Source: a virus
Virus record (IMG/VR): IMGVR_UViG_3300022538_000248
Location: 1-36,140 of that record
Reading direction: 5' to 3' (one strand)
Length of the DNA stretch: 36,140 bases
Below are positions 2,706-17,054 of the stretch, in pieces (position 1 is the stretch's first letter; every line of letters starts with the position of its first letter). Under the pieces are notes generated by a model that searched no databases, was not told the DNA's origin, and saw only the letters and a program-made list of their open reading frames with translations. The translations under genes were made by a program, and so were the position numbers.

Positions 2706-2945
2706 TCAGCTTTGCTGCATAAAGTCAAATAATAGTTGTTGTCCTATTTCTATAAAAGGTATTATATCATAATCATTAACACACCAAGATGCATATTCAC
2801 ATCCTCTGGAATCACTAATCATTATGTCACTACCACACCCACCGGTTACTTTTGCCACCTTACCCACCTCCCTTTCAGCCACACCAATAGTTACAGCCGA
2901 TGGTAGTATCTTTACTCTGTCACCTATTTTGAATTTGGTTTTCAT
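2706..2945 (-). CDS. KOW/SH3-like small protein with QLLFDFM tail (copy A)
   Basis: The 79-aa protein opens with K-F-K-I-G-D-R-V-K-I, the first strand typical of KOW/SH3-like barrels, continues with V-G-K-V-A-K-V and other short strands, and ends I-G-Q-Q-L-L-F-D-F-M-Q-Q-S. It is one of ten such proteins in the window sharing this terminal peptide while the middle is unrelated in sequence. The conserved start looks like a folding scaffold; the tail looks like a docking motif (see findings). Function otherwise unknown. It lies just upstream of the deoxyribosyltransferase-like gene. Confidence 0.85.
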   Translation of the reverse strand: MKTKFKIGDRVKILPSAVTIGVAEREVGKVAKVTGGCGSDIMISDSRGCEYASWCVNDYDIIPFIEIGQQLLFDFMQQS

Positions 2946-2946
2946 T

Positions 2947-3171
2947 TTAATCTTTCTTTACTCCGCATACAGTGCAAGTCCACGCAACTTTATCTTTTAC
3001 CCTACTTTTTGCCTTGTTGTGTACCCTCATACCAACTCCATATTTGGTATCTTGGTACTTACTACGACAGTTACACTTTCGTATCATTATTTTCCCTCCA
3101 AATATTTTTAGATAATTCTTGTCATATCTGGCTTTGTCAGTTGGCCATTTCATTTTTTCATTGATAGTCAT
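2947..3171 (-). CDS. Zinc-ribbon protein, possibly with two in-frame starts
   Basis: The C-terminal part, from MIRKCNCRSKYQDTKYG to C-T-V-C-G-V-K-K-D, is a one-zinc ribbon (C-N-C plus C-T-V-C) of a type frequent in phages. It has its own strong SD (GGAGGG, ATG at 3087, 46 aa). The same frame stays open upstream to another ATG at 3171 with AGAAGGG; the extra 28 residues (MTINEKMKWPTDKARYDKNY and on) look like a conserved phage peptide in their own right. Both products may be made. The longer form is given here. Confidence 0.65.
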   Translation of the reverse strand: MTINEKMKWPTDKARYDKNYLKIFGGKIMIRKCNCRSKYQDTKYGVGMRVHNKAKSRVKDKVAWTCTVCGVKKD

Positions 3172-3181
3172 TTTACCCTTC

Positions 3182-3397
3182 TCATAAAGCATCATTACTT
3201 AATTCCTTTTCAATATTCCCAGCTAATATTACCTTTGTGTTATCGTTGTATTTGGGGTTATACTTAAATTTAAGGGTCAGTGCATATTCTAATGCTGCTT
3301 TCCACGCTTGATGAGCTTCGGGATACCCAAGATGGGAGTTATCGTTTCCCTCTCTATGTGAGTATTTCTTATTCCACCATTTATCAAACTGTTCCAT
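3182..3397 (-). CDS. Small phage protein with W-K-A-A-L-E motif
   Basis: The 71-aa protein begins MEQFDKWWNKKY, and contains H-Q-A-W-K-A-A-L-E-Y-A-L. The pattern 'F..WW ... A..AWKAALE..L' is frequent in small phage proteins of unknown function, usually near the replication genes. AAAGG precedes the ATG. A much shorter relative with only the first part is encoded at 11329-11418. Confidence 0.85.
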   Translation of the reverse strand: MEQFDKWWNKKYSHREGNDNSHLGYPEAHQAWKAALEYALTLKFKYNPKYNDNTKVILAGNIEKELSNDAL

Positions 3398-3414
3398 TCT
3401 TTAACCTTTCAGCT

Positions 3415-3834
3415 TTAGCTTGTCCGATTTTTCAAATCGGCGATTTCTTTCTTATCTTTGCCTCTTGGAATAAACTTACCGCCTGCATATAAAAATGGGC
3501 CGCCAATCATAAGAAGTGATATTAACCCATCAGGTTTGAATAAAGTATTTTTGAGTTCGTTCCCTGCCAATATGGAAAGATTTGTGATGCTTTTGTAGTA
3601 TCCACCTTTGATTCTTTCAATAGTAAGCTTGTAATCAATAGCGTTGGCAAGCCGCTTGGCATCCCATAACGTTGACCAAGGTAGGAATAGCTTTGTTGGT
3701 ACGCCTGCCCACTCAGCAGCATCTTGGTCTACATAGGTGGGGGTTGCTACATCCTGCATGCACCCAGCACCGACAAACACCAATGCTATCAGCCCAATCA
3801 GTACTATGGCCGTTGTTTTTAGTAACTTTTTCAT
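3415..3834 (-). CDS. Predicted phage lipoprotein with a second membrane segment
   Basis: The 139-aa protein begins with two Lys and a hydrophobic run ending F-V-G-A-G-C-M (residues 19-26), a typical signal peptidase II lipobox with Cys at about residue 25. The middle is soluble; a second hydrophobic stretch (L-I-S-L-L-M-I-G-G-P-F-L-Y-A) precedes a highly charged tail. It is probably anchored to the outer face of the host membrane. Phage lipoproteins in early regions often act in superinfection exclusion; this role is an inference from type and position only. It is flanked by replication-region genes, not lysis genes. Confidence 0.8.
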   Translation of the reverse strand: MKKLLKTTAIVLIGLIALVFVGAGCMQDVATPTYVDQDAAEWAGVPTKLFLPWSTLWDAKRLANAIDYKLTIERIKGGYYKSITNLSILAGNELKNTLFKPDGLISLLMIGGPFLYAGGKFIPRGKDKKEIADLKNRTS

Positions 3835-3847
3835 TCTTCACTTCCTT

Positions 3848-3906
3848 TCAAATTGCGTAGCAATTTAGTACGCCTACGGCGTCATAAAATCAAATAATAA
3901 TTGCTC
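3848..3906. repeat. 59-bp direct repeat, copy 1
   Basis: Positions 3848-3906 match 4306-4364 at 58 of 59 bases. The repeat holds the last codons of a tailed KOW protein (E-Q-L-L-F-D-F-M-T-P-stop) and about 33 bp of downstream sequence with two small inverted repeats (aaattgc/gcaattt and cgcc/ggcg). The two proteins upstream of the repeats are otherwise unrelated in sequence. Confidence 0.95.
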
Positions 3907-4101
3907 ACCTTTTCTCGACACATATTCTATTTCATTAGGCAAGAGTGGAAAATCTCTTTCTTTTATTCCACCCCAAATAACCTTTATAAAGCTTCCCTGA
4001 AAACGAACAATCGTCAAAGTCGCAGCACCCAATGAGAAGCTTCTGGGATTTTTTAACTTTACTTTATCCCCAATTTTGAAACCTTTTTTATCCATCGTCA
4101 T
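3874..4101 (-). CDS. KOW/SH3-like small protein with QLLFDFM tail (copy B)
   Basis: 75 aa: K-G-F-K-I-G-D-K-V-K-L at the N-terminus, beta-rich middle with T-L-T-I-V-R-F and F-I-K-V-I-W, and the tail R-K-G-E-Q-L-L-F-D-F-M-T-P. The ATG at 4101 overlaps the preceding gene; a second ATG at 4095 has the better distance to the GGAAG signal, so the first two residues are uncertain. The last ten codons and the downstream bases are almost identical to those of copy C. Confidence 0.85.
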   Translation of the reverse strand: MTMDKKGFKIGDKVKLKNPRSFSLGAATLTIVRFQGSFIKVIWGGIKERDFPLLPNEIEYVSRKGEQLLFDFMTP

Positions 4102-4291
4102 ACTTCCTTTTCAACTCAGCTTCAAGCTTTATAGTGTCTATCTCCTGATTTGTCAAGAATGTAAACCTCCTAAGCAATGAAATTGTCTGGTGAACACCTT
4201 TCCTAATCCTGCGAGTAACTGCCTTAACTCTTTTTTCCTTATTCTCATAAATTATATGATGACTATTAAGCACTATTTTTTTCTTCGCCAT
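4088..4291 (-). CDS. Basic small phage protein (67 aa)
   Basis: The start at 4291 (MAKKKIVLNSHHIIYEN) follows AAAGGA at good distance; an upstream in-frame codon at 4321 lacks an SD. The protein is very basic, with H-H-I-I-Y near residue 11, R-I-R-K-G-V-H-Q and a C-terminal amphipathic helix. The 'HHI.Y ... R.I.KG.H ... L.RR.....' pattern recurs in phage small proteins of unknown function; the charge suggests nucleic-acid binding. Confidence 0.75.
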   Translation of the reverse strand: MAKKKIVLNSHHIIYENKEKRVKAVTRRIRKGVHQTISLLRRFTFLTNQEIDTIKLEAELKRKYDDG

Positions 4292-4305
4292 AAAATTTCC
4301 TTTCT

Positions 4306-4364
4306 TCAAATTACGTAGCAATTTAGTACGCCTACGGCGTCATAAAATCAAATAATAATTGCTC
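4306..4364. repeat. 59-bp direct repeat, copy 2
   Basis: Second copy of the element at 3848-3906, differing at one base. It covers the last codons of the copy C gene and its downstream flank. Because the repeat stops where the coding bodies of the two genes begin to differ, it marks a duplication or recombination boundary at the tail-encoding segment. Confidence 0.95.
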
Positions 4365-4592
4365 CCCCACTCTGACAAATGGTTCGATTTCTGGTTCAAG
4401 TACCATCAAGGCCCACCCTCCAAGTGATTCGCTCTCAAGTTCATATACATTAACATTACAATAAGTCTCCTTTGCTTTTGTTATTGTTCCCATATCTCCT
4501 ATGTGATAAGTGAGTATCCCCCAACTTTCCCGTAATTCCTCTGGCATATCTGACCACTGTATGACACGAACCCTTTGCCCTACCTTAAACAT
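4332..4592 (-). CDS. KOW/SH3-like small protein with QLLFDFM tail (copy C)
   Basis: 86 aa: MFKVGQRVRVIQWS at the start, a G-D-M-G-T-I-T-K turn typical of KOW-like domains at about residue 32, W-A-L-M-V-L-E-P and the tail R-V-G-E-Q-L-L-F-D-F-M-T-P. Starts four bases after the stop of copy D and uses GAGG as SD. The body shares little with copy B although the tails are the same at DNA level. Confidence 0.87.
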   Translation of the reverse strand: MFKVGQRVRVIQWSDMPEELRESWGILTYHIGDMGTITKAKETYCNVNVYELESESLGGWALMVLEPEIEPFVRVGEQLLFDFMTP

Positions 4593-4596
4593 CTTG

Positions 4597-4866
4597 TTAC
4601 CTCATAAAGTCAAACACTAACTGTTCCCCAATCCGTACTTCATCTTGCAACACAAATTCTGGAAAATTCAAGCGTACATCAGACAAATGATACTTATAAG
4701 ACTTATAAATATTCTCAGTATTCAATACTTCCAGTACTACAAGTACTTTACCTATATATTTGTCCATTCTGGGAGGCCAACTATCCATCCATAAATCATG
4801 CTCCGCAGCAGTAGATGCCCTTAATACCTTTACTTTGTCACCAACTTTGAATTTTGGAGTTCTCAT
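4597..4866 (-). CDS. KOW/SH3-like small protein with QLVFDFM tail (copy D)
   Basis: 89 aa: T-P-K-F-K-V-G-D-K-V-K-V-L at the start, then I-G-K-V-L-V-V-L-E-V, and the tail R-I-G-E-Q-L-V-F-D-F-M-R. The tail differs from the others by one Leu to Val, and its codons differ at several third positions, so the peptide rather than the DNA is conserved. It lies directly downstream of the primase gene. Confidence 0.87.
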   Translation of the reverse strand: MRTPKFKVGDKVKVLRASTAAEHDLWMDSWPPRMDKYIGKVLVVLEVLNTENIYKSYKYHLSDVRLNFPEFVLQDEVRIGEQLVFDFMR

Positions 4867-4874
4867 ATCATCCT

Positions 4875-5759
4875 CTATATCATACTAATCAACTCTTTTC
4901 TTACTGTCTTTTTCCCTTTAAGGGCAATGTACTCCCTAATATCCTTTGCCCCATTGAAAGAGAATATGGTTATATCAACTTCTCCTTCCCCAAAATCATC
5001 GTCATAATATAATCCGTCTAACTCATCTCGTAACTGCTCTGCTCCGGCTATACCCACAGTGTCATTGTCAGGTATAATAATTATCCTTTCAGTACCCGCT
5101 AAACCAGTTTCAAGAAACATATCCCATATACCATCTGTATATTGACAGTTGGAACGTGCTATGCTTTGCAATCCTAAATCCCACACACTTATGCCATCAC
5201 TGAATCCCTCACAGATAAACACATAGTAATCACCAATGAGGCCATGTGGATACATAAGCCCCAAACGGGAACCTGTGACACACCGCTTAGTCCCATCTGG
5301 GAATCTACGCTGCACTCCACAGAAACCGCTTTCCCTACGGTATTCAGTTAAATCCTCTCTGAACATTGGGATAGTGAAGGAACGCCCATCGTAACCCACC
5401 AACCACTCATCCAAACTATCCGTGCTTACATTCAATTCCTTTGCTAATCCCAACTTCAACAATGGAAACTTTTGCAGGTTGTTGTAGCAACTATCAGTAA
5501 ATTGCCGCCATAATGTATGTAGGTTAGGTCTGTCGTTTTTGTATATAACAAGCTCTGATAGATTTAATTTGTTCATCTGCTCATTGGTTAGATAACCTTC
5601 TTTGGAACATGCCCAACACTTGTATTTTCCATAATATCTATCTAACAGTGATATAGATAGGTTGGGTCTAATGGTATCCTTGTGAAAGCAACAGTAACTC
5701 CATACCCTGTCATGCTCCACTCTTATGATATTTAATTGTCGGAAGTCAGAGTTTTTCAA
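4875..5759 (-). CDS. DNA primase-like protein (CHC2-type zinc finger and TOPRIM)
   Basis: The 294-aa protein has an N-terminal zinc-finger-like region, C-C-F-H-K-D (about residue 23) then K-C-W-A-C-S-K-E-G, as in CHC2 primase fingers. A TOPRIM domain follows: V-F-I-C-E-G-F-S-D-G (about residue 180; acidic E) and I-I-I-I-P-D-N-D-T-V-G (the D-x-D motif). It should make RNA primers for replication. It is shorter than cellular DnaG and lacks a clear helicase-interaction domain. The start appears to be TTG at 5759 with AAGGAG upstream. Helicase and single-strand-binding-like genes are close by, all on the same strand. Confidence 0.88.
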   Translation of the reverse strand: MKNSDFRQLNIIRVEHDRVWSYCCFHKDTIRPNLSISLLDRYYGKYKCWACSKEGYLTNEQMNKLNLSELVIYKNDRPNLHTLWRQFTDSCYNNLQKFPLLKLGLAKELNVSTDSLDEWLVGYDGRSFTIPMFREDLTEYRRESGFCGVQRRFPDGTKRCVTGSRLGLMYPHGLIGDYYVFICEGFSDGISVWDLGLQSIARSNCQYTDGIWDMFLETGLAGTERIIIIPDNDTVGIAGAEQLRDELDGLYYDDDFGEGEVDITIFSFNGAKDIREYIALKGKKTVRKELISMI

Positions 5760-5775
5760 GGTCTTGTTCTCCTTA

Positions 5776-6009
5776 TCATTTCATAAACGAGAATAATAAC
5801 TGTTCTCCTATCTTTCTGCATCTTTCTAACTCTTTCTCCATAAAATTAAGTTTCAGATTATCAGCTTCAAAATGTAAGGTATAAGGTACTGAGGTAATAC
5901 CAGAATGGTCAACAATTTTAGCAATTTCACCTATCATAGACCGTGTAGTAGGCGTGCACGTTTCCTCGTCGGCACATATTACTCTTACCTCATCACCTAT
6001 CTTAAACAT
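5776..6009 (-). CDS. KOW/SH3-like small protein with QLLFSFM tail (copy E)
   Basis: 77 aa: MFKIGDEVRVICAD at the start, then I-G-E-I-A-K-I-V-D-H-S-G, and the tail K-I-G-E-Q-L-L-F-S-F-M-K. Its ATG overlaps the helicase stop as TAATG, with the SD (GAGGAGG) encoded by the last helicase codons, so the two are translationally coupled. It sits between helicase and primase. Confidence 0.87.
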   Translation of the reverse strand: MFKIGDEVRVICADEETCTPTTRSMIGEIAKIVDHSGITSVPYTLHFEADNLKLNFMEKELERCRKIGEQLLFSFMK

Positions 6010-6881
6010 TAGAAATCCTCCTCTTGTGGTTTATTTCTAAAAGACATCCATTGGCTAATAAAAGCACACTCCACTGTGCCTGTTGCGCCCGACCTATTCT
6101 TACACACAATCAACTCAGCCTCCCCCGTGTCCTCAGCATTTGGGTCTAACTGCCTGTCAAAATAGCTTGGCCTGTGTATCAATATAATCTTGGTGGAGTC
6201 GTTCTCCATTGCCCCACTCTCCCGCAGGTCTGTCATACGTGGTCTTGGGTTTTCTCGTAATTCTGGCCCTCTGTTAAGTTGGGAGAACGCAATAACAGGG
6301 ATATTAAACTCCCTTGCTATGGCCTTTAGCTCCCTGCTTATCTCTGACACTTCCTCTTGCCTGTTTGCTACCTGCTTACGCAGGGACATAAGTTGAAGAT
6401 AATCTATAATCAAGCAGGCGATGGGCTCAACATCTTGAATAGATTTAAGAATCTCCCTTATTGAATCTGGCACAACATACGAATCGTCATTGATTATAAT
6501 GCTGTATTGGGACAGTTGCTCAAGTGCGGTATGAAACTTACCTAACACTTTAGCAGTAGCACACCCTCTTTTTATACTGTTGTAATCAACCTTGGCTAAA
6601 TTTGCTGCCAACAACTCTGTTATCTCCTCACAAGGCATTTCCAAGGTACATAGCAAACTTGCTCCTACATTGGCACTTGGTTGCCCTACATTTAAGAGTA
6701 TGTCCCTCGCCATACTACTCTTGCCCATACCAGGTCTACCTGCTATGGTTGACATCTCCCCCTTGCCGAATCCCAATATAAAGTCATCCAAGGCTTTAAT
6801 ACCAGATGTAATACCATCAAAAGGTTTACCTATGCTCTGCTTTATATCTTGAAGGTCTTTACGTAAATCAAATATTGGCAT
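6009..6881 (-). CDS. DnaB-like replicative helicase (RecA-fold ATPase domain)
   Basis: About 290 aa from M-P-I-F-D-L-R. Walker A is G-R-P-G-M-G-K-S-S (about residue 50), Walker B is C-L-I-I-D-Y-L-Q-L-M, followed by the sensor V-I-A-F-S-Q-L-N-R and the arginine-finger-like region R-E-S-G-A-M-E-N-D-S. These are DnaB/F4 helicase motifs. The N-terminal DnaB scaffold domain is missing, as in some phage helicases, so loading and primase contact must differ from the host's. The start at 6881 is chosen because a frame extending to 6947 would run into the tail of copy F; no strong SD is seen. Confidence 0.9.
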   Translation of the reverse strand: MPIFDLRKDLQDIKQSIGKPFDGITSGIKALDDFILGFGKGEMSTIAGRPGMGKSSMARDILLNVGQPSANVGASLLCTLEMPCEEITELLAANLAKVDYNSIKRGCATAKVLGKFHTALEQLSQYSIIINDDSYVVPDSIREILKSIQDVEPIACLIIDYLQLMSLRKQVANRQEEVSEISRELKAIAREFNIPVIAFSQLNRGPELRENPRPRMTDLRESGAMENDSTKIILIHRPSYFDRQLDPNAEDTGEAELIVCKNRSGATGTVECAFISQWMSFRNKPQEEDF

Positions 6882-6888
6882 ACTAAAC

Positions 6889-7155
6889 TTAATCCATAAA
6901 AGCAAATAATAGCTGTTGATTTTTCTGTAGTAATATTTCAAGAGCATACCAGCTACACCCCCACGATGCAGCTACCTTCATTGTAGAGTAACGAGATATA
7001 TGTGTAGAATTTGGTAGAAATATAACTGGATAATTTCCATTATGCCACCCAACAATTTTGCCTGCTTTGCCAATATCTTTTTGTGCCGCATCGTTTGGGT
7101 CTACTTCACCAAGATATTTGACCATAGTACCAATAGGATACTTCTTGTCACTCAT
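6889..7155 (-). CDS. KOW/SH3-like small protein with QLLFAFM tail (copy F)
   Basis: 88 aa: K-K-Y-P-I-G-T-M-V-K-Y-L-G at the start, I-G-K-A-G-K-I-V-G-W in the middle, and the tail Q-K-N-Q-Q-L-L-F-A-F-M-D. With copy G it forms a subgroup whose first strand reads Y-P-I-G-T rather than F-K-I-G-D. Its start overlaps the upstream gene by 8 bp (ATGAGTGA). Confidence 0.87.
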   Translation of the reverse strand: MSDKKYPIGTMVKYLGEVDPNDAAQKDIGKAGKIVGWHNGNYPVIFLPNSTHISRYSTMKVAASWGCSWYALEILLQKNQQLLFAFMD

Positions 7156-7441
7156 TATTATCTTGCTCCATTATCTTATCACGAACAGATTTACCTTGTG
7201 GTTTGGGTTTAGGCTTGTAACTTTGTTTATACTGTTTATTCAAGTTATTCAATACCCAACGCATACAAACTGCTGGCCAATAGGATATACCCTTCCATCC
7301 CTTGCTCTCAAAGTAGAGGTAACAACTTTGTGCCATATAATCCAATTGTGTGTTGCTAAAGGTGTATCTCTTGTCATGGCAGTATTGTTTCATTACCTCA
7401 AGAACTTCGGTGTCTGAATTGGGTTTATTGGGTTTAGGCAT
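7148..7441 (-). CDS. Phage replication accessory protein fragment-like (possible helicase loader)
   Basis: 97 aa with Y-L-Y-F-E-S-K-G-W-K-G near the middle, then Y-W-P-A-V-C-M-R-W-V-L-N-N and a Lys/Pro-rich tail. The 'F..Y..S.GW......W...V..W' pattern is what closes many phage replication-initiation and DnaC-loader partner proteins. Its position one gene upstream of the helicase fits a role in helicase loading, but this is inference; no ATPase or winged-helix domain is present. Confidence 0.75.
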   Translation of the reverse strand: MPKPNKPNSDTEVLEVMKQYCHDKRYTFSNTQLDYMAQSCYLYFESKGWKGISYWPAVCMRWVLNNLNKQYKQSYKPKPKPQGKSVRDKIMEQDNNE

Positions 7442-7444
7442 ATA

Positions 7445-7678
7445 CTATTCCATAAAACTAAATAATAATTGTTGATTTGGTAGCACCAATGGCTCTATGT
7501 CACTCCATTTAACAGGAACCCACCCTGTAGACGTAGATGCACAATGAGGAGACTCTGGTAGTCTCACTTCACAGTAGCAATCAAATACATAAATAATTTC
7601 ACCTGTTGTATTTTTACATTGCTCACAGCTTCCTACATATCTAACCTTCGTACCTATGGGGTATCTTTTATCAGCCAT
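7445..7678 (-). CDS. KOW/SH3-like small protein with QLLFSFM tail (copy G)
   Basis: 77 aa: K-R-Y-P-I-G-T-K-V-R-Y-V-G, then T-G-E-I-I-Y-V-F-D-C-Y-C and the tail V-L-P-N-Q-Q-L-L-F-S-F-M-E. It has four cysteines (C-E-Q-C and C-Y-C), so it might also bind a metal. SD (AGGAGG) is clear, and it lies between the single-strand-binding-like gene and the replication accessory gene. Confidence 0.87.
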   Translation of the reverse strand: MADKRYPIGTKVRYVGSCEQCKNTTGEIIYVFDCYCEVRLPESPHCASTSTGWVPVKWSDIEPLVLPNQQLLFSFME

Positions 7679-7688
7679 AATTTACCTC

Positions 7689-7970
7689 CTAAAACGGTAC
7701 ATCCCCTACTGGTGTACCACCCTGCTCACATGCAGGTGTTATGGTGTCCTTAATATAAATATACTCAAGAACCTTGGTAATCCCAAGCTGTAACTTTACC
7801 AAATCTGTTGGCTTAAAGGATTTAGTACGCTTCCACCCAGTATCATCTTTATAGCTTTTATCAATGGTAATAGACTGAAAATTACCTTTAGGTGTTTCGT
7901 TACTCCAAACAGCGATTTGGATACCACCAACTCTAATTGTTTTTTCTGGTGCTCTTTTTTCTTGTGCCAT
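7689..7970 (-). CDS. Single-strand DNA-binding-like protein with DVPF tail
   Basis: The start at 7970 (MAQEKRAPEKTIRVGG) has an AGGGG SD; the upstream in-frame ATG at 8003 lies inside the neighbouring gene. The 93-aa body, I-R-V-G-G-I-Q-I-A-V-W-S-N, then S-I-T-I-D-K-S-Y-K-D and T-K-S-F-K-P-T-D-L, has the strand pattern of an OB-like or PC4-like nucleic-acid-binding domain. It ends G-D-V-P-F, close to the D-I-P-F terminus through which bacterial SSB recruits partners. Placement next to helicase and primase supports an SSB role; overall homology to SSB is not evident. Confidence 0.75.
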   Translation of the reverse strand: MAQEKRAPEKTIRVGGIQIAVWSNETPKGNFQSITIDKSYKDDTGWKRTKSFKPTDLVKLQLGITKVLEYIYIKDTITPACEQGGTPVGDVPF

Positions 7971-7989
7971 AATACTACCCCTTTCTAAA

Positions 7990-8226
7990 TTAAGTTTTTT
8001 CAAAACCTATTGATAATTTCCGTCCCCTCTGAACTAAATCATATAACTTTTCCTCAAAACCGTTATCAGCAGCTTCCTCAGTTGTATTATCTCGGACTTG
8101 TGCCCATGTTAAATAACCTACATCAAAGGCAAACTCCATTAATTTTTTATTTTCCTTCAACAGATAGCTTGCCGTCTTTACAATCGTTCTGTCTATATCT
8201 CTTTCAAGTTTATCTTTACCATTCAT
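7990..8226 (-). CDS. Hypothetical helical protein (78 aa)
   Basis: The product is charged and mostly helical, beginning MNGKDKLERDIDRTIVKTAS and ending with R-G-R-K-L-S-I-G-F-E. SD GAGGTGA precedes the ATG, which overlaps the stop of the upstream zinc-ribbon gene as ATGA. No family recognised; location suggests a replication-associated function. Confidence 0.78.
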   Translation of the reverse strand: MNGKDKLERDIDRTIVKTASYLLKENKKLMEFAFDVGYLTWAQVRDNTTEEAADNGFEEKLYDLVQRGRKLSIGFEKT

Positions 8227-8402
8227 AACTCACCTCTTTGTTCCTTTAAGAATCCTTTACACACAACACATTTTACCTTCGGAGGAACTTTGCCTTTGGA
8301 GTTTGGTTGCACTTTGTTCATCGCCATATCTGGACTGTGCGTTGATGGTTTACCACATTTAGGACAGCTTATTTCCCAATAAGATTTACTCCCACCTGCC
8401 AT
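8223..8402 (-). CDS. Zinc-ribbon protein (59 aa)
   Basis: A 59-codon frame fills the gap between two genes. ATG at 8402 follows AAGGAG, and TGA overlaps the next ATG (ATGA). The sequence begins MAGGSKSYWEISCPKCGK and has a second pair C-V-V-C near residue 45, giving a C-P-K-C / C-V-V-C zinc ribbon with a basic linker rich in Lys and Pro. Probable zinc-binding, function unknown. Confidence 0.8.
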   Translation of the reverse strand: MAGGSKSYWEISCPKCGKPSTHSPDMAMNKVQPNSKGKVPPKVKCVVCKGFLKEQRGEL

Positions 8403-8404
8403 AA

Positions 8405-8677
8405 TTATTCTCCTTGTTCGTTCATAAATTCAAATAGTAATTGTTCATTTGGTTTACTTGCCAATTCTATCATTTTTGCCTGTAACCACCAACGAGTTTC
8501 TTTTGGCTCTCTATCCCGTCTCGGCCTACCCATATCTACTACATAAGACACATGCTCACCACCATCATAAATATCAATATCCACAATAGTACCTTTTTTA
8601 TTTAACTCATAAGGTTCTATCGAAGAGCAATTAATAATTCTAACCCTGTCACCTATTTTGAATGCCATATTATTCAT
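8405..8677 (-). CDS. KOW/SH3-like small protein with QLLFEFM tail (copy H)
   Basis: About 90 aa: A-F-K-I-G-D-R-V-R-I-I at the start, K-K-G-T-I-V-D-I-D-I in the middle, and P-N-E-Q-L-L-F-E-F-M-N-E-Q-G-E at the end. Here five residues follow the Met of the motif, so the tag tolerates a short extension. Two possible starts exist (8677 and 8668); neither has a strong SD. The gene lies immediately after the terminator at 8694-8731. Confidence 0.87.
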   Translation of the reverse strand: MNNMAFKIGDRVRIINCSSIEPYELNKKGTIVDIDIYDGGEHVSYVVDMGRPRRDREPKETRWWLQAKMIELASKPNEQLLFEFMNEQGE

Positions 8678-8693
8678 AATGGTATAATTCCAA

Positions 8694-8731: not shown

Positions 8732-8752
8732 TTAATTACTTACAACAGTTGT

Positions 8753-9115: not shown

Positions 9116-9119
9116 CTTT

Positions 9120-9576: not shown

Positions 9577-9831
9577 CTACCCCTTCATAAAATTGAATAA
9601 TAACTGTTGACCTTTTATTGTTACACGCTCTATGTTAGATGGCCTATGCCATTTAGTTTTTATTGCCATACCACAATTTTCATCATCGCATATTACACAA
9701 ACGGAAGTATCATATACAGCCTGAATCCAACCATTTTCATCTATCGAAACAATTTTCCCATCCCCGTGTATCCATTTTGGGTTTTTTGGTTTTACTTTAT
9801 CACCTACCTTGAATTTTTCATACCATTGCAT
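9577..9831 (-). CDS. KOW/SH3-like small protein with QLLFNFM tail (copy I)
   Basis: 84 aa from M-Q-W-Y-E-K-F-K-V-G-D-K-V-K. This start follows GAGGAGGG, whereas an ATG 21 bp upstream precedes the SD. A G-D-G-K-I-V-S-I-D-E-N-G turn fits the KOW pattern, and two Cys (C-V-I-C) sit in the middle. It ends I-K-G-Q-Q-L-L-F-N-F-M-K-G. It overlaps the upstream gene by 14 bp. Confidence 0.87.
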   Translation of the reverse strand: MQWYEKFKVGDKVKPKNPKWIHGDGKIVSIDENGWIQAVYDTSVCVICDDENCGMAIKTKWHRPSNIERVTIKGQQLLFNFMKG

Positions 9832-10060
9832 CTGCACCCTCCTCTGGTACATTCATATAGTCATGTGTTGGATAGTGTTCACAGTCTTTCAACATCATTT
9901 CAAGTTTCTTTATCAATTCTTTTGGTGTTTTACTCGGTAATACACCCAAGCCATCTGTGCAAGCCATTATTTTACCTTTATCATCACGATATACTTCATG
10001 CACACTGTAGTAATCTTCACCATTTTCTTTGTGAATTAGTATTTGGTAGTTCCATTGCAT
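9818..10060 (-). CDS. Conserved small protein, 'MQWNYQILIHKE' family
   Basis: 80 aa starting at 10060 behind AGGGGA. The N-terminal half, W-N-Y-Q-I-L-I-H-K-E-N-G then Y-S-V-H-E-V-Y-R-D-D-K-G-K-I, and a following 'S.TP.EL...L..ML.D' helix make up a small beta-beta-alpha protein seen in many phages and bacteria, of unknown function. An open frame upstream to 10186 runs through the AT-rich and GC-rich non-coding element and is not likely translated. Confidence 0.85.
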   Translation of the reverse strand: MQWNYQILIHKENGEDYYSVHEVYRDDKGKIMACTDGLGVLPSKTPKELIKKLEMMLKDCEHYPTHDYMNVPEEGADAMV

Positions 10061-10676: not shown

Positions 10677-10680
10677 ACAA

Positions 10681-10899
10681 CTACTCCATGAAATTGAATA
10701 ATAATTGCTGATTTTTTATTATCATAGATGCCCAACTTTTGTATACAGGTGTTTTATCCCCGTTAGCATTACATACCCATATCATATCAGACCCTGTACT
10801 TACATTTGTAATTACACACTCTTCATTTATTTTCATCATACCACCATACCATTGCGGTAGACCTTTCAGCATGACTTTATCACCTACCTTAAACTTCAT
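10681..10899 (-). CDS. KOW/SH3-like small protein with QLLFNFM tail (copy J)
   Basis: 72 aa, the shortest stand-alone member: MKFKVGDKVMLKGLPQWYGG at the start, then C-V-I-T-N-V-S and I-W-V-C-N-A-N-G-D strands, and the tail I-K-N-Q-Q-L-L-F-N-F-M-E. Its compact body shows how little separates the opening KOW strand from the tag. It directly precedes the HTH gene. Confidence 0.87.
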   Translation of the reverse strand: MKFKVGDKVMLKGLPQWYGGMMKINEECVITNVSTGSDMIWVCNANGDKTPVYKSWASMIIKNQQLLFNFME

Positions 10900-10953
10900 T
10901 TTTAGCCCCTAATATCGTAATAGTTAGATGGTTACTTAACAATTTTATAAGTT

Positions 10954-11322: not shown

Positions 11323-11328
11323 ATTTAA

Positions 11329-11418
11329 TTACTTTTTACGAGCATTATAAAATTCTTTGGTGCTTGGAAAATTGATTGGGCCAACTTCTTTTTCATACCA
11401 TTTGTCAAATTCTTTCAT
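11329..11418 (-). CDS. 29-aa peptide, possible truncated relative of the 3182-3397 protein
   Basis: A frame of 29 codons reads MKEFDKWYEKEVG, then P-I-N-F-P-S-T-K-E-F-Y-N-A-R-K-K. ATG at 11418 has GGAG 7 bp upstream, inside the end of the peptidase gene, and the stop lies 6 bp before the GIY-YIG ATG. The opening matches MEQFDKWWNKKY of the 71-aa protein at 3182-3397 but the A-W-K-A-A-L-E half is missing. Either a genuine short peptide or a remnant. Confidence 0.55.
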   Translation of the reverse strand: MKEFDKWYEKEVGPINFPSTKEFYNARKK

Positions 11419-12613
11419 TTTGATTCTCCAATATTATGGTATCACTTGGGTAAGCACATTCCTCACATATTTGTGTGCCGTATCTTTCTATAATTTTATG
11501 GTCTTTCGGTATGGGCTTTTCACATACCCAGCATTTCACAGGTTCTTTGTCACCCACATAGAATAGTGCGGCACAATCACTACAATATAACTCCCCATTC
11601 ATATACTTGAGTGAATTGCCAACCTTCATTTCACTTGTTTTTATCCCACACTCATAGCAAGCAAACAAATAGCTTTTCTTCTCCACATTATTGATGCTCA
11701 GGTTTAACTCTTTCAAACAGGAATAGCAGAATTTTTGCTTTCCTTTCTCGTATAACAAGGCCTCCTTTTTGTACTGCTTACATTTATCGCATGGGGCATA
11801 TTTATCATATGAAGTATAAGATACAGCCTGTGCCTTTATTACAGTTGGTTCAGGTGGTAGTGATGCATACTTTTTTGGCTTCATGTTGATTACTATTTCC
11901 TCCGTAAACTTCATGCTATTCCACAGGGCATCGACAGATACATATTCATAAGCGGTATGGGGTTTGTAATATCCACAGGACAAGTTCACGCAGGAAACAC
12001 CAACCCTGTTATTCCACAATTTCATCACATCCGTGACAGTGCCCGTGCAGTTTTTATACTTGTATTTCTTTTTTATCAATCCAATCTCAGAGGAAAAGTC
12101 GTGGGATATAGTTTTGTTGCCCCAATAGGTTTGTATGAAGTCCCTGTTGCCTTTTCTATCTAACTGAATCAGGTATCTGCAATCGTTAAAGAATATCTTA
12201 TCCATGCCTGTGCTACCTTTGCACCCTGACTCCTCCCTTGAGAAGAACACAACCTTTATTTGGGGTATTACTTTTAACAGATACAAACAAACGAATATCC
12301 CGCATTTATCATCTCCGCCTATGCCCACTCTCCTTTTGTTACTCATGGCAAACAGTACATTGTTATCATCTGTGTCTTTGTATATCTTGAAATCGTCCAC
12401 AAAGTCATGCACGGTGTCCATGTGCGATGTCACACAGGGATATGTCTTTGCCTTGCCTTTCGTGACAATGAGGTTTCCAACAGCGTCAATATGATAGGGC
12501 AGCTTCAATTTCTTAAGCTCCTTGTCGAGATACAGCACCATCAGCTTCTCGTTCTCGCTGTTTGTCTGAACCATCAGTACATCGAGCAGTTTGTTGAACC
12601 AATAATATTCCAT
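11405..12613 (-). CDS. M20-type metallopeptidase fused to zinc ribbons
   Basis: 402 aa. Residues 1-250 carry the M20/PepT di-zinc peptidase motifs in order: T-S-H-M-D-T-V-H-D (metal His and catalytic Asp, about residue 63), G-I-G-G-D-D-K-C-G-I (bridging Asp), S-R-E-E-S-G-C-K-G-S (catalytic and metal Glu), L-D-R-K-G-N and K-P-H-T-A-Y-E (last metal His). All expected ligands are present, so it is probably active on small peptides or an amidated substrate. From about residue 275 the protein carries three ribbon-like Cys sets (C-D-K-C ... C-Y-S-C; C-Y-E-C ... C-S-D-C; C-W-V-C ... C-E-E-C). Such a peptidase in a phage, and this fusion, are unusual. It overlaps the next gene upstream as TAATG. Confidence 0.85.
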   Translation of the reverse strand: MEYYWFNKLLDVLMVQTNSENEKLMVLYLDKELKKLKLPYHIDAVGNLIVTKGKAKTYPCVTSHMDTVHDFVDDFKIYKDTDDNNVLFAMSNKRRVGIGGDDKCGIFVCLYLLKVIPQIKVVFFSREESGCKGSTGMDKIFFNDCRYLIQLDRKGNRDFIQTYWGNKTISHDFSSEIGLIKKKYKYKNCTGTVTDVMKLWNNRVGVSCVNLSCGYYKPHTAYEYVSVDALWNSMKFTEEIVINMKPKKYASLPPEPTVIKAQAVSYTSYDKYAPCDKCKQYKKEALLYEKGKQKFCYSCLKELNLSINNVEKKSYLFACYECGIKTSEMKVGNSLKYMNGELYCSDCAALFYVGDKEPVKCWVCEKPIPKDHKIIERYGTQICEECAYPSDTIILENQNERI

Positions 12614-14190
12614 TATTTCTCCATAAATTCAAATAATAACTGTTTTTTATCAGGCAACCTAAAATCCTGTTTTATATACCATTTGTTGTTGAACTTCTTT
12701 AAGTGTTGTTTGTTTCCAGCGGAGTTTATTATTAAATCACCAATAGTAAGTTGGATAAAATTATCCCCGTTTATACAGTATACTTCTTGATACTCTAAGT
12801 TATTTATTATAGGGTTGTAAACAATGTCATAAGCAATTATTGCATGTTCTTTCGGTATTAAATCGCCTTTTCTTGAAAGCCCCGTATAGTTACTATTTCT
12901 ATCGTTTACTCTGGTTCTTCTCCAATATGGTGTATAATCTTGAGAATAATGTATGTAGTATGTTTGCTTTGCAAGTTCTTTATTCATACCTTCCCTGTCA
13001 TAGTTTACAAAACATTGTGATATATGATACCACTTATCATCAAAACAAACAAGGTTGGTGTCTTTTTTATGGTATATTTTATCGCCAATGATTATAATAT
13101 TAGATTCATGTACGTATCCATCATATTCAGTGGAGTGTACCGCCGTTGCCTTGCTCATTGTGTCATTAGTGATAATCTCATTTACCAAGTCCTTTTTGAG
13201 TATGTGCCCATCAAGCATAGTCTGTGTTATGTTTTTTCTGTCGTATTTACTGTAATACACACCGTTTATATCCACTATGCTTGCTTTCAGCACATATCCA
13301 TCATACCTCTTTACGAACACCGCATCTTTTTTGGATATGAAGTTGCTGGTGCACGCCTCCACCACTCTATCTGGGTCGAGAGCTGGATAGTATCCACGAT
13401 TTGTATGTTCATGTAGAGTTATACAGGAATCGGACTTCCTGTGTATCCCCAACGCATCACTGGAAGTAAGAAGATTGTCTTTGGGATACAAGTATCTGAA
13501 CGTGTCCATATAAGGTAAGTGACACATACCATCTATGATTATATCCTTTTTATAATAGCTTTTGTCCATTTGGTTGACGGTGGTTGTCGGATACCACTTC
13601 CATTTATTTTCTTCTGCCAAATCATAAAACAATGGAAGTAAGGTGTTCGTTCTTGCGTACACTCTGTCCAAATACCCAAATGATGTTTTGCGTTTTGTGC
13701 TTTCAACATTGTCCCATAGCACGGCACGGGCATGTATTCTGTTGTTGCTATCTACAACTACAACAATTCTCACTTTGTTTTTGACATAAAAGTTTAACGC
13801 CTTTTGCATGTCTTTTTGACGCATACAACTTTTCCCCAAGTTGCTTGTATCTGCTAAGAAATAATTAGAATACAAATAAGCATATCTTATTTTGCTTGAA
13901 GGCCATATCTCTATTTTTAGATTTAGTTTCCTTTCTTCTTTAGAAAGTATAATACCCCACATATGAGATGCAGAAATATTACAGGAAACATGTCGGTATA
14001 GAAAATCCTTTAGGGATTTTTTATTTTTACGAGTCCCATCTTTTTCTTCATAGGTAACATGGAAAACGTTGGTTGTGGTTGTATGCGTTATGATAATGTT
14101 AGTTGCTTTTGGTGGAGACTTATAGGTATAACCATATTGTTTGTTATATTCTTTCAATATTTTGTCAAAGTTATATTTTATAGTACTCAT
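12613..14190 (-). CDS. Large phage protein of unknown function with C-terminal QLLFEFM tag
   Basis: 525 aa, the longest left-arm product. A central part reads S-C-M-R-Q-K-D-M, then V-R-I-V-V-V-V-D-S-N-N-R-I-H-A-R-A-V-L-W and D-R-V-Y-A-R. This 'SCM......... RI.(G/A)RA(V/L)LW .... DR.Y' pattern recurs in large unassigned proteins of big phages. The C-terminal half has repeats of a 'K.Y.GYV..(A/S)..' beta segment followed by H-I or Y-Y-S strands. The last residues, D-K-K-Q-L-L-F-E-F-M-E-K, are the same tag as in the KOW proteins. No catalytic motif is recognised. Confidence 0.85.
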   Translation of the reverse strand: MSTIKYNFDKILKEYNKQYGYTYKSPPKATNIIITHTTTTNVFHVTYEEKDGTRKNKKSLKDFLYRHVSCNISASHMWGIILSKEERKLNLKIEIWPSSKIRYAYLYSNYFLADTSNLGKSCMRQKDMQKALNFYVKNKVRIVVVVDSNNRIHARAVLWDNVESTKRKTSFGYLDRVYARTNTLLPLFYDLAEENKWKWYPTTTVNQMDKSYYKKDIIIDGMCHLPYMDTFRYLYPKDNLLTSSDALGIHRKSDSCITLHEHTNRGYYPALDPDRVVEACTSNFISKKDAVFVKRYDGYVLKASIVDINGVYYSKYDRKNITQTMLDGHILKKDLVNEIITNDTMSKATAVHSTEYDGYVHESNIIIIGDKIYHKKDTNLVCFDDKWYHISQCFVNYDREGMNKELAKQTYYIHYSQDYTPYWRRTRVNDRNSNYTGLSRKGDLIPKEHAIIAYDIVYNPIINNLEYQEVYCINGDNFIQLTIGDLIINSAGNKQHLKKFNNKWYIKQDFRLPDKKQLLFEFMEK

Positions 14191-14232
14191 ATTGTAACTC
14201 CTTGTTTAGTAACTACTTAGAGGCATCCTCTA

Positions 14233-14496
14233 CTAATTGAGGTGTATTCCGTAAGCATTTGCATCACTACACAAAATAATTACTTCTTGTCCGATGTGTT
14301 TAGCTTTAGTACCCTCAACTTGGTCTAAGTCTGTGATTTTATCCTTAAATATTTTTGTTGCTGTTGGTTTCACAAGTTTACGAGTACACCTATTACAGTA
14401 CGGATGAACGTTTTTTCGTTTAGTACACCAGTCAGCTATATGGAGTGACATTTCACAACCACATAATGTACACTCTGCTGTGTAACAATCACACAT
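14233..14496 (-). CDS. Cys-rich zinc-binding-like protein (87 aa)
   Basis: The start at 14496 follows GGGAGA and gives M-C-D-C-Y-T-A-E-C-T-L-C-G-C. Further Cys and His (D-W-C, H-P-Y-C-N-R-C) make two probable zinc sites in the first 40 residues, followed by a basic stretch and a C-terminal K-H-I-G-Q-E-V-I-I-L-C strand. The frame stays open upstream to 14652, but that part coincides with the tRNA on the same strand and lacks an SD, so it is excluded. Function unknown. Confidence 0.72.
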   Translation of the reverse strand: MCDCYTAECTLCGCEMSLHIADWCTKRKNVHPYCNRCTRKLVKPTATKIFKDKITDLDQVEGTKAKHIGQEVIILCSDANAYGIHLN

Positions 14497-14548
14497 TTTA
14501 TTTCTCCCGTGCCTTTTGGCATCTAAATATGTTTCCAGTTTACTATAA

Positions 14549-14621
14549 TGCCCCCAATGCGGTTTGAACACATGTCTTTCCCCTGAGAAGGGAATATCCT
14601 TCGCAATTAGACGATGGGGAC
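14549..14621 (-). tRNA. tRNA-Glu (anticodon CTC)
   Basis: On the minus strand a 73-nt cloverleaf can be drawn: acceptor GTCCCCA with TGGGGGC (one G-T pair), linker TC, D-stem GTCT/GGAT with a 9-nt loop, anticodon stem TTCCC/GGGAA with loop TTCTCAG (anticodon CTC), 4-nt variable loop, and T-stem ATGTG/CGCAT with loop TTCAAAC. The discriminator is A and no CCA is encoded. The order resembles bacterial tRNA-Glu, starting GTCCCC..TCGTCTA. The D-loop lacks the usual GG pair (GC instead), so it may be divergent or weak. Confidence 0.8.
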
Positions 14622-14701
14622 GACCAGCAATTATAGGATATAATGCTATCACCCTTAATCACTGGTTAGATTAAACATCCCAATGGATATTTAATATGTG
14701 T

Positions 14702-14950
14702 TTACTTCATTTCCCAACTGATACTTACTTTAACAGGAATTACTCTTATCTCGCAGAGGTCATCAATAATTTCACCAGTTATCGAGTTTATTGCGGCTTG
14801 GTCAAAGTAGCCTTCTTCAAGTCTCTGCCATAGTTCTTTTTCCATTATGAAGTAATCTCCTTCATCTAAAGTATCAAAATAGACACCCACTTTGACATCT
14901 TTAGGGTTTGGTGTTATTTGAGTACCTATTACTGTTTTCTTTTTTGCCAT
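14702..14950 (-). CDS. Hypothetical protein (82 aa)
   Basis: MAKKKTVIGTQITPNPKDVK at the start, then V-Y-F-D-T-L-D-E-G-D-Y-F-I and a C-terminal I-R-V-I-P-V-K-V-S-I strand. The 'L..GDYFI' turn is seen in small beta-barrel phage proteins. SD AGGAG precedes the ATG. No function recognised. Confidence 0.82.
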   Translation of the reverse strand: MAKKKTVIGTQITPNPKDVKVGVYFDTLDEGDYFIMEKELWQRLEEGYFDQAAINSITGEIIDDLCEIRVIPVKVSISWEMK

Positions 14951-14993
14951 TTCTGTTCTCCTAATAAATAATGTTACGGGTTTATGTTGTTAC

Positions 14994-15197
14994 TTACTTA
15001 AATGTTTTATGAAACGAATCCACAGCTTTTTGTAGCTCTTGTTTTGCGTGAGTATAATAAACCTCAAAATATTCTTTGGGCAGGTATTCAAAATGTAACG
15101 CTAAGCAGGCTGTAGTATATAAATCCCTGTGTGCTCCTATATCATTAGGGGTCAGCTTGGTAAATTGCAAATCTGTTCTTTTGTTTTTATTGTTCAT
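14994..15197 (-). CDS. Hypothetical helical protein (67 aa)
   Basis: A small helical, charged protein with an aromatic-rich middle, H-F-E-Y-L-P-K-E-Y-F-E-V-Y-Y-T-H, and a C-terminal amphipathic helix. SD AAGGGG lies before the ATG. No recognised family. Confidence 0.78.
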   Translation of the reverse strand: MNNKNKRTDLQFTKLTPNDIGAHRDLYTTACLALHFEYLPKEYFEVYYTHAKQELQKAVDSFHKTFK

Positions 15198-15208
15198 ATT
15201 ATTCCCCT

Positions 15209-15385
15209 TTATTTCTTCAATAATCTTGCACGTTCCTTCTTTGCTATCCGCCCCTCTTTGTCAAGCTTTGCGAGTTGCTGTTCATTGCTTCGTTGACTGC
15301 GAGCCTGTGTCTGTGCATCAGCCTCCTTGTGTTTTCTTTTTTTCTTTTCGTCAGCTATTTTATGGCCGTATCTTTCTCTTATCAT
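15209..15385 (-). CDS. Highly charged small phage protein (58 aa)
   Basis: A 58-codon frame starting MIRERYGHKIADEKKKRKHK, with R-S-N-E-Q-Q-L-A-K-L-D-K-E-G and K-K-E-R-A-R-L-L-K-K. The 'RS..QQL..LD...G....KER..L' pattern is common in small phage proteins of unknown function. SD GGAGGGG stands 8 bp before the ATG, and the gene overlaps the end of the zinc protein at 15360-15821 by 26 bp. Likely a basic helical protein that binds nucleic acid or a partner. Confidence 0.75.
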   Translation of the reverse strand: MIRERYGHKIADEKKKRKHKEADAQTQARSQRSNEQQLAKLDKEGRIAKKERARLLKK

Positions 15386-15821
15386 GTTGTAATCCCCTCC
15401 AATAAAATAATGGGTATTGCTTTTCTTGTGTTGTAAATAAGGTTTCCTTACTTATACGTGTCCTACTAAAATGATACTTGCGAGCTATTTTTTGTAGCCT
15501 ATCCATTTGGTTAATAAATTTATGTGATATGTTACGTAGATTGAAGAGGTTTTTATTCAAATACTTGTAAATAGTGTATTGCATACTGTCCCCAACCCAA
15601 CACATTCCTATTTTACAGCCTAAACATTTTATAGTACACCCACTATCCCCCAAATAATCACAACTTCCACAACATAAATCTTCACCGTTTCTTTTACACA
15701 TATAACTATTATTGCATATCAATTCACTATCCTCTACTCTAATGTTACATGGATTATATTGTTTAAGTAGTTTATCCGCTTTGTCATAGATTAAGTCATA
15801 TAGCTTTCGTCTGTTTATCAT
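15360..15821 (-). CDS. Cys-rich protein, zinc paralogue 1 of 3
   Basis: 153 aa. K-L-Y-D-L-I-Y-D-K-A-D-K-L-L-K-Q-Y-N-P-C at the start is followed by D-L-C-C-G-S-C-D-Y, then G-C-T-I-K-C-L-G-C-K-I-G-M-C and a basic helical C-terminus. It shares this 'LYD.(I/L)Y..AD.LLK..NPC ... CC..C ... GC..KCL.CK...C' layout with the genes at 15978-16406 and 16611-17054. At least eight conserved Cys suggest two structural zinc ions. Function unknown. Confidence 0.82.
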   Translation of the reverse strand: MINRRKLYDLIYDKADKLLKQYNPCNIRVEDSELICNNSYMCKRNGEDLCCGSCDYLGDSGCTIKCLGCKIGMCWVGDSMQYTIYKYLNKNLFNLRNISHKFINQMDRLQKIARKYHFSRTRISKETLFTTQEKQYPLFYWRGLQHDKRKIRP

Positions 15822-15829
15822 ATTATCCC

Positions 15830-15988
15830 TTAAGATAACCTATACTCTTGTATCCACACTTTACCACCAACAGACTGTGATGCTTCCATAGTTTTGTCAG
15901 CTTTTCGCTTGTCAATAAAAACACCCAAGTCAAACTTGTCTGTGCTTTTATTCAGTTTGCACCAGACAATATATACTTTATCTACCAT
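15830..15988 (-). CDS. Hypothetical protein (52 aa)
   Basis: The frame begins MVDKVYIVWCKLNKSTDKFD and ends V-W-I-Q-E-Y-R-L-S, giving a beta-beta-alpha-beta pattern with F-I-D-K-R-K-A-D-K-T helix. AGGAGG lies upstream, inside the end of the preceding zinc paralogue. It sits between two zinc paralogues with overlaps of a few bases, which supports it. Confidence 0.75.
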   Translation of the reverse strand: MVDKVYIVWCKLNKSTDKFDLGVFIDKRKADKTMEASQSVGGKVWIQEYRLS

Positions 15989-16406
15989 AATTTAGCCTCC
16001 TTTGTCTGTTCCTTATCTGTCTTAACCATTGTTCTTTTGATTGATAATAGCATACTTCTGGGATATTATAGGTTACAAACTTTTCTAATACACCTAACCT
16101 ATAGTCCAAAACTTCATTTTCTTTTTTTGCTTCGGAGCATAGCCATAATTTACACCGTAAACATTTTGTAGCACATCCAAATAAAGAATAATGGTCTGTC
16201 CTCCACTCCTCCCAACAACCACCACAACATAGACGTTTAAGTCTTGTTGTATGCCCTTTTGGATGAGATGTGCAACATAATTTTTTGTCTTTAATGTGTA
16301 TTTTGCAAGGGTTATGTTTCTTAAGTAACCTATCCGCAATATCATATAATCTATCGTATAACGCAGATAACTCCTTTACGGACAAAGATTTAGTAGCTGT
16401 TACCAT
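15978..16406 (-). CDS. Cys-rich protein, zinc paralogue 2 of 3
   Basis: 142 aa from 16406, chosen for the GGAGG 6 bp upstream; an in-frame codon at 16445 lacks it and would cover a 23-codon gene. The sequence has E-L-S-A-L-Y-D-R-L-Y-D-I-A-D-R-L-L, K-H-N-P-C, L-C-C-G-G-C-W and G-C-A-T-K-C-L-R-C-K-L-W-L-C, matching paralogues 1 and 3. The C-terminus is basic. Probably zinc-binding, function unknown. Confidence 0.82.
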   Translation of the reverse strand: MVTATKSLSVKELSALYDRLYDIADRLLKKHNPCKIHIKDKKLCCTSHPKGHTTRLKRLCCGGCWEEWRTDHYSLFGCATKCLRCKLWLCSEAKKENEVLDYRLGVLEKFVTYNIPEVCYYQSKEQWLRQIRNRQRRLNYGR

Positions 16407-16408
16407 TA

Positions 16409-16480
16409 TTAACCTCCGTAAAATTCCCCGCTGTAACAATAACAAGTGGTAACTATTTCAAAGACTTTATATGTTCTCAT
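16409..16480 (-). CDS. 23-aa micro-ORF with a strong ribosome-binding site
   Basis: A 23-codon frame, M-R-T-Y-K-V-F-E-I-V-T-T-C then Y-C-Y-S-G-E-F-Y-G-G, has GGAGG 7 bp before its ATG. That ATG overlaps the stop of the upstream 46-aa gene as ATGA, and its own TAA is two bases before the next ATG, supplying that gene's GGAGG in its last codons. It may be a real peptide or a coupling leader. Confidence 0.5.
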   Translation of the reverse strand: MRTYKVFEIVTTCYCYSGEFYGG

Positions 16481-16617
16481 AGACCAACCTCCAATATTAT
16501 TGCCTTAACTAATGTTACAAGAGTAACGATAACTTTTTGTATCGCTTGCACACTTTGTGTCCAGCCTATTATGGTCAAGGCTGTGCCAGTTATTATACCA
16601 GCTATGTATTTTAACAT
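16477..16617 (-). CDS. 46-aa hydrophobic peptide
   Basis: MLKYIAGIITGTALTIIGW at the start and a second hydrophobic part, V-I-V-T-L-V-T-L-V-K-A-I-I-L. It is likely membrane-associated, with one or two short spans. ATG at 16617 has AGGAG 5-6 bp upstream and the stop overlaps the next ATG. It is not near lysis genes; its role is unknown. Confidence 0.65.
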   Translation of the reverse strand: MLKYIAGIITGTALTIIGWTQSVQAIQKVIVTLVTLVKAIILEVGL

Positions 16618-17054
16618 ATGTACTCCTTTTTCAATGAGTCTTTTAGTATTTGAGTTTTAGTACGATAGTAAGGATACAGAACTATCCCACATTTTTCAGC
16701 GATGTTTTTTAACCGGCGAAGCCTATTCTTCAATATTTTATTTGTAACAAAACCACAGTAAAATAACTTACAGGGTAAACATTTAATAGGACAACCAGTT
16801 TTCGATTGATACTTGCAAGCATGACAACACAAGAAATGCCCTTGTTTTTGTTGCCAGGCAACGAAGCTGTGATGATGATATTGTTTACATAAAACAAACC
16901 CCTTTTTAGTAGTGTGTATATTACAGGGATTGTGTTTTTTAATCAACTTATCTGCGATATTATATATGCGGTCGTATAATGCGGATAAATCGGCTAATAT
17001 AAAATCAAATAATAATTGTTCCCCTGTTGGCATTAGTTGCGTTTGTATCGTCAT
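16611..17054 (-). CDS. Cys-rich zinc paralogue 3 carrying an N-terminal QLLFDF tag
   Basis: 147 aa. The body, D-L-S-A-L-Y-D-R-I-Y-N-I-A-D-K-L-I, K-K-H-N-P-C, L-C-C-H-A-C and G-C-P-I-K-C-L-P-C-K-L-F-Y-C, matches paralogues 1 and 2. In front, residues 10-18 read T-G-E-Q-L-L-F-D-F-I, the peptide that ends the KOW proteins, here joined in frame to the N-terminus. The DNA there (about 16999-17024) also resembles the KOW gene ends. This implies that the tag moved between genes by recombination. Function unknown. Confidence 0.83.
   Translation of the reverse strand: MTIQTQLMPTGEQLLFDFILADLSALYDRIYNIADKLIKKHNPCNIHTTKKGFVLCKQYHHHSFVAWQQKQGHFLCCHACKYQSKTGCPIKCLPCKLFYCGFVTNKILKNRLRRLKNIAEKCGIVLYPYYRTKTQILKDSLKKEYIC

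Follow-up and report, generated by a model that had tools for sequence, protein, structure and literature searches.

A panel of small SH3-like phage proteins sharing a C-terminal tail that resembles bacterial beta-clamp ligands

What might a phage gain from ending ten different small proteins with one and the same peptide? The question is raised by the viral record IMGVR_UViG_3300022538_000248 of IMG/VR, which we analysed over its whole length of 36,140 bases (the window). We identified ten minus-strand genes encoding proteins of 72-91 amino acids (aa), each consisting of an SH3/KOW-like barrel followed by a C-terminal tail, Q-L-x-F-x-F-M. A previous interpretation made from the letters of the window (the sequence-only reading) had located ten KOW-like genes, and all ten are present as open reading frames (ORFs; Table 1). 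It had also regarded the tail as a tag by which SH3-like adaptors dock to a sliding clamp or to some other replisome hub. This proposal is supported here, and the switching of orthologous tails between QLxFxF and QLxLF appears to narrow it to the bacterial clamp motif. The best reading is that the genes form a paralogous panel of SH3 adaptors tethered to the host clamp, which we hold to be correct with a probability of roughly two in three. Docking to the clamp as such, be it for tethering or for blocking, is a safer proposition and seems quite probable.

A small barrel and its conserved tail

A degenerate DNA pattern for [EQ]-Q-L-x-F-x-F-[MI] matched the window 11 times, always on the minus strand, while shuffled sequences gave a mean of 0.00. 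These matches correspond to the ten KOW-like genes and a zinc protein. An AlphaFold2 model built on a 42-member alignment shows a small barrel with a mean predicted local distance difference test score (pLDDT) of 81.8 and strands at residues 10-13, 30-37, 40-45, 53-56 and 61-63, whereas the tail (67-79) is a coil outside the barrel, the last block having a mean pLDDT of about 65. The tail is thus predicted to be accessible, flexible and separate from the barrel. The top structural match was YorP (PDB 2heq; Z 8.4 over 74 residues, root-mean-square deviation 3.0, 20% identity), which we take to be a protein of the Bacillus subtilis prophage SPbeta. It was tied with KOW and other SH3-like domains, and KOW and eL21 domains stood in the same match lists. 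The best sequence-profile matches to solved SH3-like domains reach no further than profile position 65, which precedes the tail, and Pfam matches of the bodies were all sub-threshold. The body fold is therefore like that of YorP and of the KOW, eL21 and Mind bomb SH3-like domains, with profile matches that cover the barrel and not the tail.

These data bear on the idea that the tail is an internal part of the protein, such as a barrel strand or a dimer contact, rather than a docking peptide. Polar and hydrophobic residues do alternate in it in a strand-like manner, and the confidence of the model is only moderate there. However, the model places it as a coil beyond the last strand, so that the internal strand which the sequence-only reading had named as an outcome speaking against docking was not seen. 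In addition, related SH3 folds align without the tail, and an unrelated 525-aa protein ends in the same peptide. We consider an internal role very unlikely.

The panel is not confined to the window. DNA-pattern scans found it in the viral contigs 3300005253_000289, 3300022538_000217, 3300022540_000325, 3300022542_000566 and 3300009034_000068, and a search with the 525-aa family added the panel-bearing contigs 3300005820_000004 and 3300008516_000904 as well as contig 3300033148_003689, which stops inside the 525-aa gene. Alignments of the 525-aa protein, a 151-aa protein and the primase retrieve the same few contigs and three more. These related phages have replication and head genes in common, at roughly 30-90% protein identity. 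When a profile cut ahead of the tail was run against all ORFs of six genomes (one being a 21-kb stretch) at E < 0.01, it recovered 56 family members, with 10, 10, 12, 9, 6 and 9 in the respective genomes. The middles of the proteins had been described as not alignable by eye, but they could be aligned after relatives were added, and the tail-free profile retrieves the family with E values down to 5e-21.

According to this body-only profile, which was seeded by members first found via their tails and could miss a tail-less branch with a very different body, the tail is present in 55 of 55 intact family members (51 QxxFxF and 4 QxxL[FW]). In the last 20 residues of the other ORFs, QxxFxF occurs in 4 of 1145 and the pentapeptide pattern in 18 of 1145. 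Absence of the motif from related phages had been put forward as a finding that would count against docking; the tail is kept in all of them. The lone tail-less member, G001_20609 (positions 20609-20887 of relative G001, minus strand), was counted as not intact. Its barrel breaks after about 22 matched residues and gives way to a helix-turn-helix-like end. In the tree of the bodies (71 columns, many forks unresolved) members are not grouped by phage, and orthologous groups span phages.

Beyond these contigs, no near DNA match to the window was found among phage records, and the terminase, the portal and the 151-aa protein had no protein match among public phage records. When genome contigs were scanned for the tail pattern, none of the 36 loci obtained encoded an SH3 body with the tail attached, and so neither a prophage nor a host came to light. 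Very weak body matches (E 0.4 to 0.7) in one Proteus and one Stenotrophomonas phage had no tail. We rejected tail-pattern matches in other viral contigs (L004-L007, L015-L018, L024, L027 and L028) as chance, since they lie in unrelated frames or inside unrelated proteins.

The true core of the tail is Q-phi-x-F-x-F. All 55 intact tails have Gln at position 1. The pattern that defines the 51 hexameric tails fixes Q, F4 and F6, so that these residues do not vary among them. At position 2 these 51 have L in 48 cases and I, Q and T in one each. Free variation is seen at position 3 (L, T, Q, V, M), at position 5 (S, D, E, N, A, G, Q, L) and in the residue ahead of Gln (Q 23, E 17, K 5, R 2, G 2, I 1, V 1). 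Clamp ligands have Phe, Leu or Ile at position 5 or 6; here the hexameric tails have F6, three of the pentameric SH3 tails have F5 and the fourth has Trp. Two further preferences among the 51 are strong: Met follows F6, and G or N stands two places ahead of Gln. The formula [QE]-Q-L-[LV]-F-[DSAEN]-F-M given by the sequence-only reading is to be widened in the residue before Gln and in Leu at position 2, and four intact members have the pentapeptide instead.

The same reading had noted that the codons of the tail vary synonymously, and this is borne out by nine different 18-nucleotide (nt) cores among the ten window tails and 47 among the 51 cores overall. Because 47 spellings serve 51 cores, the conservation of the tail is a peptide-level and not a DNA-level signal. 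The sole identical pair of cores in the window lies inside a 63-nt direct repeat (3847-3909 and 4305-4367, 97% identical) comprising the 3' ends of genes 3874 and 4332, tail included, and a spacer. This repeat appears to reflect a tail that was recently copied or spread by gene conversion. Such a shared 63-nt copy is what one might look for if the repeated 3' sequence were a translated DNA element, for example a recombination site or regulatory signal. That explanation is contradicted by the codon data, in which the residues are conserved under many spellings, by the zinc-protein copy, which has a different position relative to its gene, and by the pentapeptide variants, which keep protein and not DNA similarity; it is scarcely credible.

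Comparison of the tails with clamp ligands

We found that orthologous tails switch between QLxFxF and a pentapeptide form in four SH3 groups and in the 525-aa protein. The tails EQLLFDFMTP of genes 3874 and 4332 stand against RKQLMLFEL and RRQLMLFEL, respectively, in their orthologues in relative L112, and QQLLFDFMQQS of gene 2706 stands against GQQLLLWDDV in relative G003. In the group of G002_18205 the tail is EQLLFSFMEG, but QQLMLFEL in relative G005. Overall, the SH3 pentapeptides are QLMLF three times and QLLLW once. The five orthologues of the 525-aa protein end in QLQFSF, QLAFDF, QLLLL, QLLLF and QSLLF, so that with QLLFEF of the window the F-x-F form is found in three phages and the pentapeptide in three.

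Ligands of the bacterial beta clamp, some of which carry their motif in a C-terminal tail, follow Q-phi-x-[LM]-[FL] or Q-phi-x-[LM]-x-[FL], and whether the form is penta- or hexameric appears to be without effect on clamp affinity (PMC11139829). Judged from the peptides, the alternation seen here is what a beta-clamp pocket would allow and would not be expected of an arbitrary docking site. The bacterial motifs (QL[S/D]LF and QLxLxF, as in Pol II, Pol IV, UmuC and Hda) are like the phage tails in Gln1, Leu2, a free position 3 and hydrophobic residues at positions 4 and 5/6. They are often C-terminal, as here, where both forms occur within one orthologue set.

Several points weigh against docking to the clamp. 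Position 4 of natural clamp ligands is only Leu or Met, and Phe weakened an E. coli peptide (PMC11139829). In the phages, Leu is found there in the 4 pentameric SH3 tails and in 3 of 6 tails of the 525-aa protein, whereas all 51 hexameric tails have Phe, and so the hexameric form alone fails the strict [LM] rule. Only three SH3 tails match the strict published pattern, and the clamp literature consulted offers no explanation for the preferred Met behind F6 or for the G or N that stands two places ahead of Gln. Furthermore, the relatives encode a family-A DNA polymerase that has no tail, and phage synthesis therefore need not use the clamp. In view of position 4, we describe the tails as resembling the bacterial clamp-ligand class by motif and do not file them as proven clamp ligands.

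A likeness to the PIP box had been suggested as well. The PIP-box consensus of PCNA ligands is Qxx[LIM]xx[FY][FY]. Set in this register, the tails have Q in the Gln slot in only 23 of 51 cases and Met at the last position, and the pentameric tails misfit too; this likeness was given up.

The odd residues of the tail could instead point to a phage-specific hub, such as the family-A polymerase, the helicase or an unrecognised phage clamp, with the likeness to the bacterial motif being convergent. Phe at position 4 and Met after F6 do differ from known clamp ligands, and the panel genes sit among phage replication genes. On the other hand, tails of orthologues go back to QLxLF, which is the canonical form for a host clamp, and DnaN was not found in the six records (possibly incomplete), by a search that left divergent and T4/PCNA-type clamps aside. 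A hub of the phage's own is an unlikely partner. Since the relatives have no detectable DnaN and encode a family-A polymerase, we infer that the host beta clamp (DnaN) is the likeliest dock.

Genes around the panel

The SH3 genes are interleaved with genes for a helicase, a primase and an SSB-like protein (Table 1). The tail is absent from the polymerase, helicase, primase and SSB-like protein, and it is a consistent feature of the SH3 panel and the 525-aa protein alone; to call it a phage-wide docking tag was too strong.

Table 1. Panel genes and neighbouring features, with positions in the window.
Feature	Position	Strand	Tail or end	Remark
SH3-like protein	2706-2945	-	GQQLLFDFMQQS	ORF and body profile; member modelled by AlphaFold2
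SH3-like protein	3874-4101	-	GEQLLFDFMTP	ORF and body profile
SH3-like protein	4332-4592	-	GEQLLFDFMTP	ORF and body profile
SH3-like protein	4597-4866	-	GEQLVFDFMR	ORF and body profile; SH3_15 Pfam match sub-threshold
SH3-like protein	5776-6009	-	GEQLLFSFMK	ORF and body profile; between helicase and primase
SH3-like protein, YPIGT type	6889-7155	-	NQQLLFAFMD	ORF and body profile
SH3-like protein, YPIGT type	7445-7678	-	NQQLLFSFME	ORF and body profile
SH3-like protein	8405-8677	-	NEQLLFEFMNEQGE	ORF and body profile
SH3-like protein	9577-9852	-	GQQLLFNFMKG	ORF and body profile
SH3-like protein	10681-10899	-	NQQLLFNFME	ORF and body profile
525-aa protein, unrelated body	12613-14190	-	KKQLLFEFMEK	Twelfth motif instance in the window
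Zinc protein	16611-17054	-		Motif match, GEQLLFDF near N-terminus
Toprim primase-like protein	4875-5759	-	No tail	Panel neighbour
DnaB-like helicase	6009-6947	-	No tail	Panel neighbour
SSB-like small protein	7689-8003	-	SSB-Ct-like end VPF	Panel neighbour

The C-terminal tip of bacterial SSB is an acidic stretch ending in PF. The SSB-like orthologues (window, G001, G002, G003, G005 and L112) end in acidic residues and [IVT]PF in five of six cases, with one ending in QF, and they are the only ORFs ending in PF among 760. This tip would be a second imitation of a bacterial replisome docking tail. A search by sequence profile gave no solved relative for the SSB-like protein of the window.

The sequence-only reading had the tail shared by two unrelated proteins. 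This holds for the 525-aa protein, whose orthologues carry the tail, but homologues of the zinc protein do not keep its copy. The motif is absent from its two window paralogues and from the homologues in relatives, and the copy may thus be a local fusion. The zinc-protein motif leads into DFILADLS, an octapeptide that recurs, with several codons different, near the N-terminus of an unrelated ORF (20713-21078, minus strand). The 525-aa protein is weakly similar (E 6e-4 to 9e-3) to proteins of the Cellulophaga phages phi38:1 and phi40:1 and of a 635-kb uncultured phage. Its structure model had a mean pLDDT of 52.5 and was not used for fold claims.

Elsewhere in the window, the putative large terminase is split into two plus-strand ORFs (23348-24268 and 24420-25535), and every relative shows the same split. 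Next to the second putative-terminase half, G002 and G003 carry an ORF that resembles the HNH-like ORF 31681-32202. An M42/M28-like peptidase with a cysteine-rich, zinc-ribbon-like C-terminal part is encoded at 11405-12613 (minus strand) and is conserved in relatives.

Tethering, blockade and the reach of the finding

Under the reading that we prefer, each small protein would combine an SH3/KOW-like barrel with a flexible C-terminal clamp-binding motif, and this motif would dock in the hydrophobic partner pocket of host DnaN. In the infected cell the phage would load host clamps with about ten different barrels, and the separate activities of these tethered barrels would act at replicating DNA. 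The 525-aa protein would dock via the same motif. We favour tethering rather than blocking because the diverged bodies are kept group by group, the panel is interleaved with replication genes and the SSB-like protein has an SSB-Ct-like end.

If the phage aimed at blockade, a dozen abundant small proteins would fill the DnaN pockets with their tails and displace Pol III along with the other partners. Host replication would stop, and the family-A polymerase of the phage would work clamp-free. The lack of a tail on the relatives' polymerase agrees with this, as do the reports that an overexpressed clamp-motif peptide inhibits E. coli colony formation and that Gp168 of phage Twort inhibits the clamp by another site (PMC11139829). 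Nevertheless, blockade has no need for six to twelve diverged bodies kept as orthologous groups, nor for the same tail on the 525-aa protein, and we regard it as improbable. The confidences for tethering and blockade overlap, because both share the same docking step. A more far-reaching form of the tethering view makes the clamp a multi-function platform, a toolbelt of six to twelve SH3-like microproteins with their own conserved bodies and one interchangeable tail. This is tentative, with chances a little short of even.

The closest working parallel is found in T4, where gp43, gp55 and gp33 are several proteins of one phage with an interchangeable C-terminal clamp tail (PMC2988020). However, T4 has its own clamp, gp45, a different hydrophobic-acidic motif and three such proteins, whereas in the present phages the search for DnaN was negative and the tail sits on a paralogous family. 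Twort Gp168 is likewise a phage protein on the host clamp, but it occupies the DNA channel and not the partner pocket (PMC11139829). Bacterial clamp ligands differ in not having one motif on six to twelve paralogues per genome. A literature search, with most subscription journals outside its coverage, gave no report of a paralogous panel with one shared tail. The SH3-like barrel itself is a common fold.

In the literature reviewed, clamp ligands are known one protein at a time. The orthologous hexameric and pentameric pairs make the rules of the motif directly testable with peptides. If our reading is true, the panel would provide a natural test of ligand number per clamp and of motif degeneracy, with Phe at position 4, and the phage would take over the replisome hub of its host without bringing a clamp of its own.

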